A stretch of DNA of 21,165 bases, from the IMG/VR virus record IMGVR_UViG_3300013093_000328, positions 1-21,165 of that record. One strand, 5' to 3'. Under the pieces are notes generated by a model. The model saw nothing but the letters and a program-made list of their open reading frames with translations. It searched no databases and had not been told where the DNA came from. Source of the DNA: a virus. The position numbers and the translations under genes are program-made. Positions 98-4,395 of this stretch are shown piece by piece. Each line of letters begins with the position of its first letter. The first letter of the stretch is position 1.

Positions 98-590
98 CTG
101 TTATCCCTCTATTTGCTTCGGCATAGCCTTCTTGAAACAATCCTATCGCAAATCCTGCTGATAAAGTAAATAGCGAAGCAGCAAGGCTAATCTGGTTAAA
201 TAGCACAATGCTGTCCTCGATTATGGAGTCAATAGCCTCTGATTCATCATCGTCTAGAGACTCTCTTAACTCTTCAAATCGCTTCTCATAATTCTTCATT
301 TGAATGCTATTGATGACATAGCTGTTGATTTCAGATATCCCGCTAACAAAGTCTTCGTATGGAGCAACCCTAGCCATGCGAATCTCGCTATCTCGCTGTT
401 CCATCTCCACGCCTTCTTGGCTGATGGGAGGGATATCTAGTTCTTGAGCCAGCTCTTCTCCATTAGTTACCTGCATGTCGTACAGATACCAGCGAACTAA
501 AGTGGACATAGGTATGTAGCCGATATCTCCAGGCTCTTTAGTGAAAGCCTCTTCGTCTTTATCGCCACGAAACTTGTCGAAAAAACTCAC
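84..590 (-). CDS. Hypothetical protein with one predicted membrane helix
   Basis: This 168-residue protein starts at GTG (588-590), which overlaps the polymerase TGA in a GTGA arrangement and implies translational coupling. Residues 1-130 are acidic and mostly helical, with the charged segment RFEELRESLDDDESE near 105-120. Residues about 132-153 (SLAASLFTLSAGFAIGLF core) are hydrophobic and could be one membrane-spanning helix or a buried amphipathic hairpin. I do not recognise a named family. Its place directly after the polymerase and before another small gene suggests an early accessory protein, perhaps one tying replication to the membrane, but this is inferred only from position and the hydrophobic segment. 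Confidence 0.8.
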   Translation of the reverse strand: MSFFDKFRGDKDEEAFTKEPGDIGYIPMSTLVRWYLYDMQVTNGEELAQELDIPPISQEGVEMEQRDSEIRMARVAPYEDFVSGISEINSYVINSIQMKNYEKRFEELRESLDDDESEAIDSIIEDSIVLFNQISLAASLFTLSAGFAIGLFQEGYAEANRGITDEQQ

Positions 591-2536
591 TTCTTACCAT
601 CACCCCACTTATCCACAATCTTAATATCCGCAATAAGCGGAACTCGAATAGTCTTAACGCCCTTCATAACGTTCTCCATGGCATCCCTAATAGCCTCAGC
701 AGTTTCCTCAGCCAAATGATTAGGAGCCAAAGTCACTAGTTCGTCGTGAACCGTTAGTAGAAGCTTAGACCCTTGAGGAATCTTTCTGTATGCGCCACAC
801 ATGGCTAGTTTCATAATATCTGCAGCCGAACCTTGAATCTTGGTGTTAAAGGCTTGTCGCTCGGCAGAGCTACGCTTCTCTCTAATATCTGAGTTAATAT
901 CAGGCAAATAGCGACGGCGGTCACAAATGGTGGTCACATACCCGTTTTTACGGGTGCTGGCAATAACCTTACTGCGGTAGTTATTGATTTCCTTAAACTC
1001 CTTGGCGAAATTGTCTAGGAGCTCTTTAGCCTCTGCAAGCTTAATTCCAAGGGTCTTTGCTACCTTGTCAGGACCTACGCCATAGGACATGGATAGGTTG
1101 AGGACTTTACCCGCTGAGCGGTCTTTACCTACTTTGGAAGCAATAGCAGTATAGATATCTTTACCAGTATTAAAAGCCTCAAGCATGGTCGGGTCTTGGG
1201 AAAAGGAAGCAATCAATCTAGGCTCAATTTGGGCATAGTCAGCGACAACTAACTTATAACCTTCAGGAGCGATAAACAGGTTGCGAATCTTCTTACCTAT
1301 TTCGCTCTTCTCAGGGTTAGGGATGTTCTGTAGGTTAGGGTTTTTACTGGAGAATCGCCCTGTTTCCGCGCCGTTCTGAAGGAAGTCACAGTGGATACGC
1401 CCACTTATGAGCAGGCTGGTCTTCTCCTCATCTCCCAAGTAAGGGATGATGTAGGTAGTTAGCAATTTGTTAAGGTCTGAGTAGGCAGATAGCAACTTAC
1501 CCAGTGGGTCATGGACAAGTTCCTTAAGAGCTTCTTCTGAAGTTGAGTAGTCTAAGTAAGTCAATTCCTCATTGTTCATGCTTTTATTCTTACCTTTGGT
1601 GGTTAAGACCTTAGTCTTTAATCCCCTACCGCCCTCAGATTTAGGGGCATAAAGAATAAATTGCTTCTCTGGAACTGAGTTGATATTAAACTTTTGATTT
1701 GCTTCCTGATAAATCTTGGTACGCAATTCATCAATGTCTCGCTCTAAATCTACCTTCAACTGAGCCAAAGCTTCAGTATCAATAGGTGCGCCAGCTAACT
1801 TCATGTCACAAAGAACACGAAGAACTTCCATCTCTAAGTTCATAACTTTTACAACATTAGCCTCTTCAACCTTTTCTTTAAGTTTTCCCCAAAGAAGCCA
1901 TGTGTATTTAGCATCAAGCTCTGCGTAAGTAGCGACATCATCAAATGTGTGAACAGAAATATCTTTACCAACACCTTTGACCATGTGGTAACCAAGCTCT
2001 CTTTCAACGCAATCGTCTAGAGAGCACTTGCCCTTATTACGGTTATCATAAAGAAAGGATGCAAGCATGGTGTCAAAGTAAGGTCCTGGAGCGACTTCGT
2101 TATTGCAGTATTTTGCAATAGAAGTTAAGTCAAAAATTAAGTTGTGACCAATCTTTAGTTTGTCACTAAAAAGAAGCGGTCTAAGTGCCTCAAACACTTC
2201 GTCTGGGAATAGTTGTGCTGGAGGCTCAGTAAAGACTTTGGTGGCTTTGCGGTCATCTCTAGAGTAATCACTGGGACGGACTACTAGACCAGTATCTAGT
2301 CTTTTTTGTCCTTGTCCAGTAAGAGGTCTAACAAGCTCGATAAAGTCACCATTGGGATGACCCATAGGAATAGAATCAACTCGACCATAGGTAGCAAGAC
2401 TTATCCAAACTACTTGATTTACAGGAGTAAGAACCCTTTGCTCTCCCATAGTTTCAACGTCAAAAGCAAACGCATCTTGTTTTAAATAATACTCAACCAA
2501 CTCATTAAGTTGGTCCTTGTTCAGAATAACGCTCAT
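587..2536 (-). CDS. polA: Family A (Pol I-type) DNA polymerase with 3'-5' exonuclease
   Basis: This 649-residue polymerase should copy the phage genome. The N-terminal DnaQ-like proofreading domain has Exo I D26-V-E28, Exo II D136 (in GHNLIFD) and Exo III Y204-x3-D208. The palm and fingers follow: TGRFSS plus PNLQNIP (392-406), motif A DYAQIEPR (433-440), motif B R473-x3-K477-x3-L481-x3-Y485-G, and motif C H597-D598-E599. There is no 5'-3' exonuclease domain, as is typical of phage enzymes. All catalytic residues I can check are intact. The residue equivalent to E. coli Phe762 is Leu (L481). ATG is preceded by AAGGGGAG, and the leader carries a large hairpin. The gene ends in a 3-nt overlap with the next gene. 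Family assignment is secure. Confidence 0.97.
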   Translation of the reverse strand: MSVILNKDQLNELVEYYLKQDAFAFDVETMGEQRVLTPVNQVVWISLATYGRVDSIPMGHPNGDFIELVRPLTGQGQKRLDTGLVVRPSDYSRDDRKATKVFTEPPAQLFPDEVFEALRPLLFSDKLKIGHNLIFDLTSIAKYCNNEVAPGPYFDTMLASFLYDNRNKGKCSLDDCVERELGYHMVKGVGKDISVHTFDDVATYAELDAKYTWLLWGKLKEKVEEANVVKVMNLEMEVLRVLCDMKLAGAPIDTEALAQLKVDLERDIDELRTKIYQEANQKFNINSVPEKQFILYAPKSEGGRGLKTKVLTTKGKNKSMNNEELTYLDYSTSEEALKELVHDPLGKLLSAYSDLNKLLTTYIIPYLGDEEKTSLLISGRIHCDFLQNGAETGRFSSKNPNLQNIPNPEKSEIGKKIRNLFIAPEGYKLVVADYAQIEPRLIASFSQDPTMLEAFNTGKDIYTAIASKVGKDRSAGKVLNLSMSYGVGPDKVAKTLGIKLAEAKELLDNFAKEFKEINNYRSKVIASTRKNGYVTTICDRRRYLPDINSDIREKRSSAERQAFNTKIQGSAADIMKLAMCGAYRKIPQGSKLLLTVHDELVTLAPNHLAEETAEAIRDAMENVMKGVKTIRVPLIADIKIVDKWGDGKK

Positions 2537-2540
2537 ATCT

Positions 2541-2612
2541 CCCCTTATATGCTTGCAGGGACAGGATGAAAGGGGTGCTGTGAACTCAGCGTGAACATCC
2601 TGCCCCTGAAGC
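2541..2612 (-). promoter_or_regulatory. Structured leader (hairpin, possible pseudoknot) of the polymerase gene
   Basis: The 87-bp gap before polA is largely a single inverted repeat. On the minus strand the arm at 2596-2612 (GCTTCAGGGGCAGGATG) pairs with that at 2551-2568 (CATCCTGTCCCTGCAAGC): 17 pairs with one G·U and one bulge. The 27-nt loop holds a small GCTG/CAGC hairpin (2577-2580 with 2587-2590), two GTTCAC copies spaced 11 nt apart, and CCCCTT (2570-2575), which is complementary to the AAGGGG Shine-Dalgarno at 2541-2546. Loop-to-SD pairing would make a pseudoknot that hides the ribosome site. No U-tract follows, so a simple terminator is unlikely. The structure is visible in the sequence; its function is inferred. 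Confidence 0.65.
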
Positions 2613-2623
2613 GACCTAGTGTG

Positions 2624-3316
2624 TTAGTTACCCATCATTTCTTGAGCAATCTCCATGAGTTCCGCGTAAGAGTTTTGGCGGTATAGAGACGATTCGAAAG
2701 GAGTAGTGGCACTAACTAGTTCCTCTGCCTTAGCCTCATTGATACCCCAATCTTCAAAGAGGTCACGAGCCTTAACAGCCTGAAGGTGATAAACAGTTGT
2801 CTGCTTCTCTCCTGTACGGCTAAGAGCCCAGTATGGCTTGGTCAAAGGACCTTGTGGGGAGAAGTGTGCATTGTGCAGTGACTTCCAAAAACGAGCGGTA
2901 GCAATGAGAATCTGCTTCTCAGGCTTTCCGTCTTCAGTTGAAAAGTTAACGATAGTGAATATGCGCTTCTCTTCAGCCTTGTTATGTAGAACAGTGCAGA
3001 GAGGGCAATCATTGTCACTATTAGAATTCAAGCAAATGTAAGACTTCTTTCCTGGCTTTCCAGTAAGGAAGTGTTGCTTGAAAGCAGCAAACGGACCGTT
3101 CTCTCCAATAAACTTTACGACCTGTGGGGTTTCCTTCTGCTTAAATTCAGTTGGAAATCCAGTGCTTTCAGTCTTGGCAGTGAGTCCTTCTGCAGCATCC
3201 CAACCAGAAACAATCAATGATGAAGCTGATTGAACTGGACGGTCATTGATAGAAAAATCTTCCTCTTCTGTAACAAACTCAGAAGCGATGAAGTCTGGTG
3301 TTGATTCTTTAGCCAT
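2624..3316 (-). CDS. Probable zinc-binding single-stranded-DNA-binding replication protein
   Basis: This 230-residue protein has an acidic N-terminal tail (about 1-40) and then a central region with Cys95-x8-Cys104-Pro-Leu-Cys107, plus His82 or His111 as a likely fourth ligand. It looks like the zinc-ribbon-in-OB arrangement of T4 gp32-type ssDNA-binding proteins, where the Cys cluster sits between aromatic-rich strands (FTIVNF, ARFWKSL, PYWAL). I place the start at the ATG at 3314-3316 (MAKESTPDF), because GAAGGA lies 7 nt upstream; the longer version from 3346 lacks this and would overlap the previous gene by 38 nt. Its position just before the polymerase fits a strand-protecting role. The match to the ssDNA-binding family is by pattern only. 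Confidence 0.65.
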   Translation of the reverse strand: MAKESTPDFIASEFVTEEEDFSINDRPVQSASSLIVSGWDAAEGLTAKTESTGFPTEFKQKETPQVVKFIGENGPFAAFKQHFLTGKPGKKSYICLNSNSDNDCPLCTVLHNKAEEKRIFTIVNFSTEDGKPEKQILIATARFWKSLHNAHFSPQGPLTKPYWALSRTGEKQTTVYHLQAVKARDLFEDWGINEAKAEELVSATTPFESSLYRQNSYAELMEIAQEMMGN

Positions 3317-3785
3317 TTTTATTTCCTTCATTTGTGGTGTTATCACGTAGCAACTTTTGCCACGTCTCGTTTAGTTCTTTATAAACTGAACGGTGTTGAG
3401 TCCAATCTATACGAGATTTGTTCATAAGTCCATTTCTCGTAAAGATTTCGACTGCGGAGTCAATCATAGCCCTTGTGTAGAGTCTACGACCTTTATGCTC
3501 CTCCCCGTTTTTATCTTTTTTAGTCGGTAAGCGGTAAAAGGATTGTGGAACATGACCTTCCCTCATCCACTTACGAACTGTTATAACTGGGCGACCTACA
3601 GCGCCTGCAAAAGCGCCTATGGTAAACATCTCAACCTCTACACCATTGATGTATTTTTTATAAGGTTTTGCATCCCAGTTTTCGTCAGGTACTACCTCAG
3701 GAGGTAGAGCCTCACGACGTTTCCTCTTGCTTCCTGGATAGTAGGTATCCAGTTCTGCAAACTGTTCCATAAAATCTTCTTGCAT
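3309..3785 (-). CDS. MerR/excisionase-like helix-turn-helix DNA-binding protein
   Basis: This 158-residue protein has a basic N-terminus (KRKRR at 20-24). Residues about 53-116 form a winged-helix segment: MFTIGAFAGAVGRPVITVRK is helix-turn-helix, WMREGHVPQ the connection, and RRLYTRAMIDSAVEIF the wing and following helix. This is the layout of MerR/AlpA/Xis-type domains. The C-terminal tail (125-158) is polar and helical. The ATG at 3783-3785 follows the previous stop by 1 nt with AAGGG upstream; an alternative ATG five codons later has a weaker site. It ends in an 8-nt overlap with the ssDNA-binding-like gene. It could regulate the operon or recognise an origin. DNA binding is likely; the target is unknown. 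Confidence 0.75.
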   Translation of the reverse strand: MQEDFMEQFAELDTYYPGSKRKRREALPPEVVPDENWDAKPYKKYINGVEVEMFTIGAFAGAVGRPVITVRKWMREGHVPQSFYRLPTKKDKNGEEHKGRRLYTRAMIDSAVEIFTRNGLMNKSRIDWTQHRSVYKELNETWQKLLRDNTTNEGNKNG

Positions 3786-3786
3786 G

Positions 3787-4191
3787 TCAACCCTTGTTTA
3801 CAAAGAAGGCATATGAAACTTTTTTAGGAACAATGGTGTTCATATCTTCTTCAGAGATTTCGCCCTCATAGTAAGCAGCCATAAGCGCATCTTCTTCAAC
3901 CATCTTTACTTGCTTGATGCACTTATCTAAGCCCCTCTCTTCCAAGAATGGGATAGCGGAGTCTGTATTAATCTCCATGCTAGTGCGCTTGCGCTTTGTA
4001 ATAGAGACGACGCCAATAGTCTCATCACCAATGTCTAGAGTGATGTTTCCTTTGGAGTCTTCTTCACCATGCTTATCAATGGCATCTGTTAAAACTGAGT
4101 GTAAAGCTTTCTTGCGCTCAGCTAAAAGCTTCTCTTGTTCTTGAATACCAACGTACTGACGAATGTTACTGCGGATAGCTTCTGCATCCAT
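3787..4191 (-). CDS. Hypothetical protein with N-terminal coiled coil
   Basis: This 134-residue protein begins with a charged helix (about 8-40, containing EQEKLLAERKKALHSVL) likely to form a coiled coil. A short β-rich segment follows (ITLDIGDETIGVVSITKRKR, about 49-68), then a helical domain ending GEISEEDMNTIVPKKVSYAF. The layout resembles hypothetical proteins I associate with actinobacterial phage replication regions, but I cannot name a family or a catalytic residue. It is the first gene after the dyad and promoter-like site at 4199-4248, and heads the group that continues through the HTH, ssDNA-binding-like and polymerase genes. Its Shine-Dalgarno AAAGGGGG lies inside the downstream arm of that dyad. 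Confidence 0.8.
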   Translation of the reverse strand: MDAEAIRSNIRQYVGIQEQEKLLAERKKALHSVLTDAIDKHGEEDSKGNITLDIGDETIGVVSITKRKRTSMEINTDSAIPFLEERGLDKCIKQVKMVEEDALMAAYYEGEISEEDMNTIVPKKVSYAFFVNKG

Positions 4192-4198
4192 AAAAGAA

Positions 4199-4231
4199 CC
4201 CCCTTTAGATTCAAGCAGAATCTATCGGGGG
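4199..4231 (-). promoter_or_regulatory. Two-tier inverted repeat covering the ribosome site (operator, attenuator or SD-hiding hairpin)
   Basis: On the minus strand the element reads CCCCC-GA-TAGATTC-TGCTT-GAATCTA-AA-GGGGG, then TTCTTTT and ATG. The inner 7-bp repeat is perfect; a 2x2 internal loop separates it from a perfect 5-bp C/G clamp. The GGGGG arm is the Shine-Dalgarno of the gene starting at 4191, so an RNA hairpin would hide it. The TTCTTTT tract after a GC clamp also resembles an intrinsic terminator, giving an attenuator possibility. The inner repeat overlaps a -10-like hexamer and lies just downstream of a ribbon-helix-helix gene, so it may instead be a DNA operator. Sequence symmetry is certain; which use is real is not. 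Confidence 0.6.
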
Positions 4232-4248
4232 TCCTGTAGTCGTGTCAA
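4219..4248 (-). promoter_or_regulatory. Candidate sigma70-type promoter
   Basis: The minus strand has a perfect TTGACA (4243-4248), an 18-bp spacer, and TAGATT (4219-4224), which matches the -10 consensus at 4 of 6 positions. It starts just after the stop of the RHH gene and points toward the gene at 4191. The predicted transcription start falls near the loop of the dyad at 4199-4231. The consensus -35 in a non-coding gap is the main support; the -10 is imperfect. Confidence 0.4.
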
Positions 4249-4251
4249 ATT

Positions 4252-4395
4252 TTAGTCTTTAATGTATTCCTCAAGGGCTTGGATAATAACGCTGGTAACG
4301 GTCACTTTTTGCTCAGAGGCTTTAATTTGGACGGCTTTCCATAGGTCATCTGCTACGCGGATGGTGCGTGTGGGCGTCTTAGGTGCATTTGGCAT
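4252..4395 (-). CDS. Small ribbon-helix-helix (Arc/CopG-like) DNA-binding protein
   Basis: A 47-codon frame starts at ATG 4393-4395 with AGAGGA directly upstream and stops at TAA 4252-4254. The protein is MPNAPKTPTRTIRVADDLWK followed by AVQIKASEQK and VTVTSVIIQALEEYIKD. It fits the ribbon-helix-helix pattern: a β-strand with alternating basic residues (about 8-14), helix A (15-28), a turn, and helix B (32-45). Such proteins bind DNA as dimers through the paired strand. It begins 4 nt after the preceding stop and ends beside a promoter-like site and inverted repeat, so it is a natural candidate to regulate the downstream genes. Fold confidence is good; the operator assignment is inferred. Confidence 0.8.
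   Translation of the reverse strand: MPNAPKTPTRTIRVADDLWKAVQIKASEQKVTVTSVIIQALEEYIKD

Follow-up and report, generated by a model that had tools for sequence, protein, structure and literature searches.

A conserved hairpin leader before a phage Family A DNA polymerase gene, predicted to mask its Shine-Dalgarno sequence through an H-type pseudoknot

Here we describe an intergenic element in a virus record of 21,165 bases (IMG/VR IMGVR_UViG_3300013093_000328), analysed over its whole length and hereafter called the window, which has a G+C content of 41.6% and carries phage replication and baseplate genes. On its minus strand, a gene resembling those for ssDNA-binding proteins (SSB-like) is followed by a DNA polymerase gene, whose attribution to Family A in a preliminary description of this DNA is borne out by a Pfam match (Table 1). 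The SSB-like identity proposed there for the upstream gene stands in part: the syntenic homologue in the Streptomyces phage LuckySocke is annotated 'SSB protein' and borderline hits to SSB families were obtained in PHROG, whereas the structure comparison gave no significant fold match for the protein, so that the assignment can be regarded as weak but consistent. The conserved start of this gene is probably internal, at MAKEST.... Between its stop codon and the polymerase start there are 87 nt, and this is indeed the only gap above 60 bp in the window, provided that the 47-aa ORF 4252-4395 counts as a gene, in which case the only competing gap (4192-4251) measures 60 nt.

Table 1. Features of the SSB-like/polymerase junction, in window coordinates
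Feature	Position	Strand	Basis
Family A DNA polymerase with 3'-5' exonuclease domain (putative controlled gene)	587..2536	minus	Pfam PF00476 2.8e-99, PF01612 6.9e-15
Polymerase start ATG	2536-2534	minus	window sequence
AAGGGG, polymerase Shine-Dalgarno and predicted pseudoknot stem 2, 3' strand	2541..2546	minus	sequence
AUAU linker, required to bridge stem 1 in the predicted pseudoknot	2547..2550	minus	sequence; geometry
Long hairpin (predicted pseudoknot stem 1)	2551..2612	minus	window sequence, minimum-energy fold, covariation in relatives
5' arm of hairpin, GCTTCAGGGGCAGGATG	2612-2596	minus	window sequence
3' arm of hairpin, C2555 bulged	2568-2551	minus	window sequence
Apical loop, 27 nt	2569..2595	minus	window sequence
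CCCCUU (CCCCTT), 5' strand of predicted pseudoknot stem 2 and complement of polymerase Shine-Dalgarno	2570..2575	minus	sequence; correlated evolution with Shine-Dalgarno GGGG
Small inner hairpin within loop, GCUG-AGUUCA-CAGC	2577..2590	minus	sequence
Two GTTCAC copies, 11 nt apart	2596-2591 and 2585-2580	minus	window sequence
SSB-like gene end	2626-2624	minus	window sequence
SSB-like gene, upstream	2624..3346	minus	LuckySocke synteny, A3 alignment, weak PHROG SSB hits

The gap contains a hairpin of 17 pairs, with one G·U, one bulge and a 27-nt loop, exactly as the preliminary description had it, and the complementarity that it reported between CCCCTT in the loop and the polymerase Shine-Dalgarno (SD) AAGGGG is likewise found. 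The GTTCAC direct repeat which it pointed out is present in the sequence, though not retained in a relative (L082), and is probably incidental. In that same relative the inner hairpin GCUG/CAGC persists as GCAG/CUGC, this small element being found in the three closest members only. The folding of region 2500-2640 that had been suggested returns the hairpin in the minimum-energy fold of the window RNA, with a stability against shuffled sequences that is modest for this 141-nt stretch (z = -1.4). For the gap alone z reaches -3.3, with none of 200 shuffles equally stable, and 25 junctions average -3.6 (45 of 5000 shuffles equally stable).

Hundreds of relatives of the window polymerase are encoded on viral contigs, and an SSB-like gene lies upstream of the polymerase nearly everywhere among them; no nucleotide relatives of the window were found among phage records. 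Relatives were gathered through the polymerase protein, at 55-81% identity, and the comparison covered 78 non-redundant SSB-like/polymerase junctions. The closest cultivated relatives, with about 40% polymerase identity, are the Streptomyces phages BRock, LuckySocke, Alone3, GiJojo and pSt2308, all five having the same SSB-polymerase order, with additional ORFs in two. These cultivated phages carry the hairpin, with a loop devoid of CCCC, and in GiJojo and pSt2308 (L086 2557-2660 and L168 1053-1160) ORFs are inserted between it and the polymerase, the hairpin remaining with the SSB gene. As regards the surroundings, clusters of three tRNA genes occur not far upstream of the SSB-polymerase region in two loci (L018 764-989 and L085 6-230). 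Between the SSB stop and the stem, CUAG is found in the window (2619-2616) and in about 33 of the 78 relatives, while most of the Streptomyces phages have GCUAGACA at the equivalent leader position; either could possibly be an extra recognition sequence.

Nearly all 78 junctions present a long hairpin (median 16 pairs), set about 10 nt beyond the stop codon of the SSB-like gene, with arms largely unrelated in sequence. The comparison with related phages, called for in the preliminary description, thus reveals paired arms that are retained through compensatory changes. Between the window and L083, where the flanking genes are just 71-74% identical, the stem is altered with compensation around an apical loop that is unchanged at 27 of 27 positions. 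Using RNAalifold on 31 sequences, double changes were detected at 13 of 14 pairs, and a covariance model built from those 31 junctions recovers more than 30 further ones outside its building set. Elsewhere in the loci this model gives weak, chance-level matches (E above 0.5), with the exception of L087:7777, before a RecA-like gene, and when searched against entire records (up to 115 kb) it yields at most one match per record. In the model's alignment all 14 modelled pairs show double changes and 96.1% of the cells are paired, against 45-59% when the alignment is slid by one base, while the covariation score is 0.860 versus 0.269 after shuffling; an alignment fitted to the structure is biased towards pairing, and the margin is nonetheless large. 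A plain hairpin scan over 477 kb of loci, in turn, places 70 of its 82 long stems directly before the polymerase start. Since G·U outnumbers A·C by 98 to 6 among the stem cells, the structure is selected as RNA of the gene strand, and this asymmetry led us to reject a function at the DNA level as its main role.

A second layer of evidence concerns the loop. A C-run is found there in 62 of the 78 relatives, in 55 of which the SD carries GGGG, leaving seven with CCC in the loop and no GGGG (among them L092 and L093, which retain CCCC before a GAGG SD), whereas the 16 loops lacking CCC all face an SD without GGGG. On the polymerase tree, a model in which loop CCC and SD GGGG depend on each other is preferred to one of independent traits with a likelihood ratio (LR) of 37.7. 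Six control pairs of traits gave LR values between 2.7 and 14.3, two of them at a nominal p of 0.006-0.007, and for this reason the test is to be read as strong and not as the literal p of 1e-7. The two runs were lost jointly in about six places on the tree (L107; L114/L127/L142/L144/L146; L018/L025/L096; L042; L065/L066/L155; L002). Within the CCC group, loops pair with their own SD no better than with swapped ones (1638 of 5000), these elements being interchangeable there, so that what is supported is a match in the presence or absence of the C-run and G-run, and not base-by-base covariation. Across clades the loops have no consensus other than CCCC(U), the remainder varying widely.

For lineages lacking CCCC, masking of the SD through nested pairing with the SSB stop region was also considered and rejected. 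There were promising single cases (L107, 0.93; L087, 0.76); matched pairs of pre-stop regions and SDs performed no better than swapped ones, and the polymerase SD is no less accessible than those of other genes in the window.

From a structural perspective, an H-type pseudoknot needs the C-run near the 3' arm, and it is closer to that arm in 44 of 61 loops, at 24 nt from the SD (10-90% range, 21-28). The linker, with a median of 5 nt, is short for a 16-bp stem, which initially spoke against a pseudoknot. Modelled as an ideal A-form helix, however, a stem of 14-17 bp leaves 37-43 Å to be bridged, and at 6.2 Å per nucleotide the opening of at most one basal pair suffices in 44 of 58 junctions. 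The stacking of stem 2 minus the opening cost has a median of -12.5 kcal/mol and outweighs a pseudoknot penalty of 9.6 kcal/mol in 46 of those 58, these energies being rough and the value for the window slightly optimistic, as it assumed a 6-nt linker where 4 nt precede AAGGGG. According to this modelling, the geometry allows the pseudoknot and its energy is roughly favourable, and in the window itself one to three basal pairs would probably have to open.

Altogether, compensation in the stem and co-evolution of loop CCCC with SD GGGG on the tree support the SD-masking pseudoknot advanced in the preliminary description, and we consider it likely that this is a cis-acting mRNA leader limiting translation of the polymerase by masking its SD. 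On the message that carries both genes, the conserved stem of about 16 bp begins some 10 nt past the SSB-like stop, and CCCC(U), which most relatives have in the loop beside the 3' arm, would pair with the AAGGGG SD about 24 nt downstream, as the co-evolution suggests. The resulting H-type pseudoknot would hide the ribosome-binding site of the polymerase and may keep the amount of this enzyme small in relation to the SSB-like protein translated from that message. Its level might be set by a factor favouring or disrupting the pseudoknot, presumably the polymerase or the SSB-like protein, or otherwise the ribosomes translating the upstream gene.

Masking is not the sole role of the hairpin, because 16 of the 78 relatives keep it without a C-run in the loop. 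Moreover, its presence in Streptomyces phages without the CCCC loop, and its staying behind the SSB gene in GiJojo and pSt2308, point to a second or older role. These same facts are what an alternative would build on, in which the hairpin mainly serves to process, protect or insulate the 3' end of the SSB-like message (an RNase III-type site, an exonuclease block or a barrier to ribosomes leaving SSB) and the loop-SD match arose later, in one clade; a stem base lying near the edge of a terminating ribosome would also suit it. We regard this as rather unlikely, given that it explains neither the joint gain and loss of the C-run and G-run nor the placement of the former beside the 3' arm. A protein operator, in which the SSB-like protein or the polymerase binds the stem-loop and sequestration is due to the protein instead of the pairing, has a precedent in T4 (PMC3014915) and would account for the intact loop shared by the window and L083, as well as for the related hairpin before the RecA-like gene of Streptomyces phages, which suggests a common ligand. 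It is an unlikely explanation, as loops differ widely among clades outside the C-run.

A stable G+C-rich stem could also belong to a leaky intrinsic terminator (attenuator) between the two genes, and at least five U in the eight bases after the stem are indeed found in 9 of the 78 junctions. No U-tract follows the stem in the window, in L083 or in the Streptomyces phages, a terminator would not require its loop to match the SD, and the terminator scan does not call the hairpin, although it allows loops of 3-8 only; a terminator is therefore rejected as very improbable. In viral recoding signals a stop codon is followed by a spacer and then a pseudoknot, an arrangement which the stop codon, spacer of about 10 nt and predicted pseudoknot of this junction resemble. 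Yet readthrough or frameshifting into an SSB-polymerase fusion can be dismissed almost entirely: in just 9 of 78 cases does the open polymerase frame extend back beyond the SSB stop, the relative frames are mixed (32/26/20) and slippery heptamer-like runs occur in three.

The DNA polymerase of phage T4 belongs to Family B. Its gp43 operator is a hairpin of 16-18 nt whose loop is of the UAAC type and for which there is no evidence of a pseudoknot, while in gene 32 the pseudoknot belongs to the leader of that SSB gene and is bound by gp32; in 2010, T4-type gene 32 was described as perhaps the sole viral pseudoknot in translational autoregulation (PMC3014915). Like the gp43 operator of T4 and RB69, the present element is a hairpin that precedes a phage DNA polymerase gene close to the ribosome site and likely limits polymerase translation, and it departs from it in its 17-bp stem (about 16 bp in relatives), its 27-nt CCCC loop without a UAAC-type motif and the family of the enzyme. 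With the gene 32 leader of T4, T2 and RB69 it would share an H-type pseudoknot for translational control in the leader of a replication gene; unlike it, in the compared loci it stands after the SSB-like gene and before the polymerase, and is predicted to pair with the SD itself. From its sequence, then, the leader would work like these two elements without being a member of either family, and the earlier suggestion that it may be analogous but unrelated holds, given the differences in loop, stem length and location.

In SD-sequestering H-type pseudoknot riboswitches (SAM/SAH, preQ1 and SAM-II types), the stems are short and a ligand pocket contains conserved bases. The pairing of a hairpin loop with a downstream SD region is common to them and, as predicted, to this leader, in which the stem sequence is almost free and no Rfam match exists. 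As to the wider class of SD-sequestering H-type pseudoknot leaders, the hairpin with an SD-complementary loop is found, though absent in 16 of 78 relatives, and so is loop-SD co-evolution at the LR given above, base-by-base covariation being absent. STAXI, consisting of tandem repeats of a pseudoknot, is another RNA candidate near SSB genes (PMC2864571); here there is a single long stem and no Rfam hit. Indeed, Rfam 15, with STAXI and the SD-masking riboswitches included, gave no match in the window at the gathering score, and from ten loci, searched with E as high as 5, it returned only tRNA and chance hits below the cut-off. Among open-licence papers, the T4 work was all that we found on a phage polymerase pseudoknot, and a description elsewhere is possible.

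Further hairpins exist in these genomes. A second SD-masking one (window 4192-4235, minus strand; GGACCCCC..UAGAUUC/GAAUCUAAAGGGGGUUC; z -4.9) covers the SD of ORF 3787-4191, and in several relatives its CCCC..GGGG is retained next to a conserved TTGACA box. The CCCCC arm in the window is upstream of the promoter's second hexamer, so it would mask only read-through transcripts. In BRock, GiJojo, LuckySocke and pSt2308 another long hairpin directly precedes a RecA-like recombinase gene (L087 7795-7826; L169, L170, L171), and in GiJojo and LuckySocke it follows the same GCUAGACA leader as the hairpin after the SSB gene. The polymerase pseudoknot and the CCCCC/GGGGG hairpin over the SD of gene 3787-4191 (start 4191) are the basis of a speculative reading, in which GGGG SDs with CCCC masks label replication genes and one phage factor unmasks or locks them jointly, as a replication regulon at the RNA level; a similar idea would apply to the Streptomyces relatives, with their matching hairpins ahead of polymerase and RecA. 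We hold such a regulon to be quite unlikely.

The leader is thus probably a previously unreported RNA brake that sets the amount of polymerase. Conserved before the polymerase gene of a large, mostly uncultivated phage clade, and with very strong comparative support, it would constitute an independent case beside T4-type gene 32, and one accessible to experiment, as a form of the hairpin occurs in its cultivated Streptomyces relatives.
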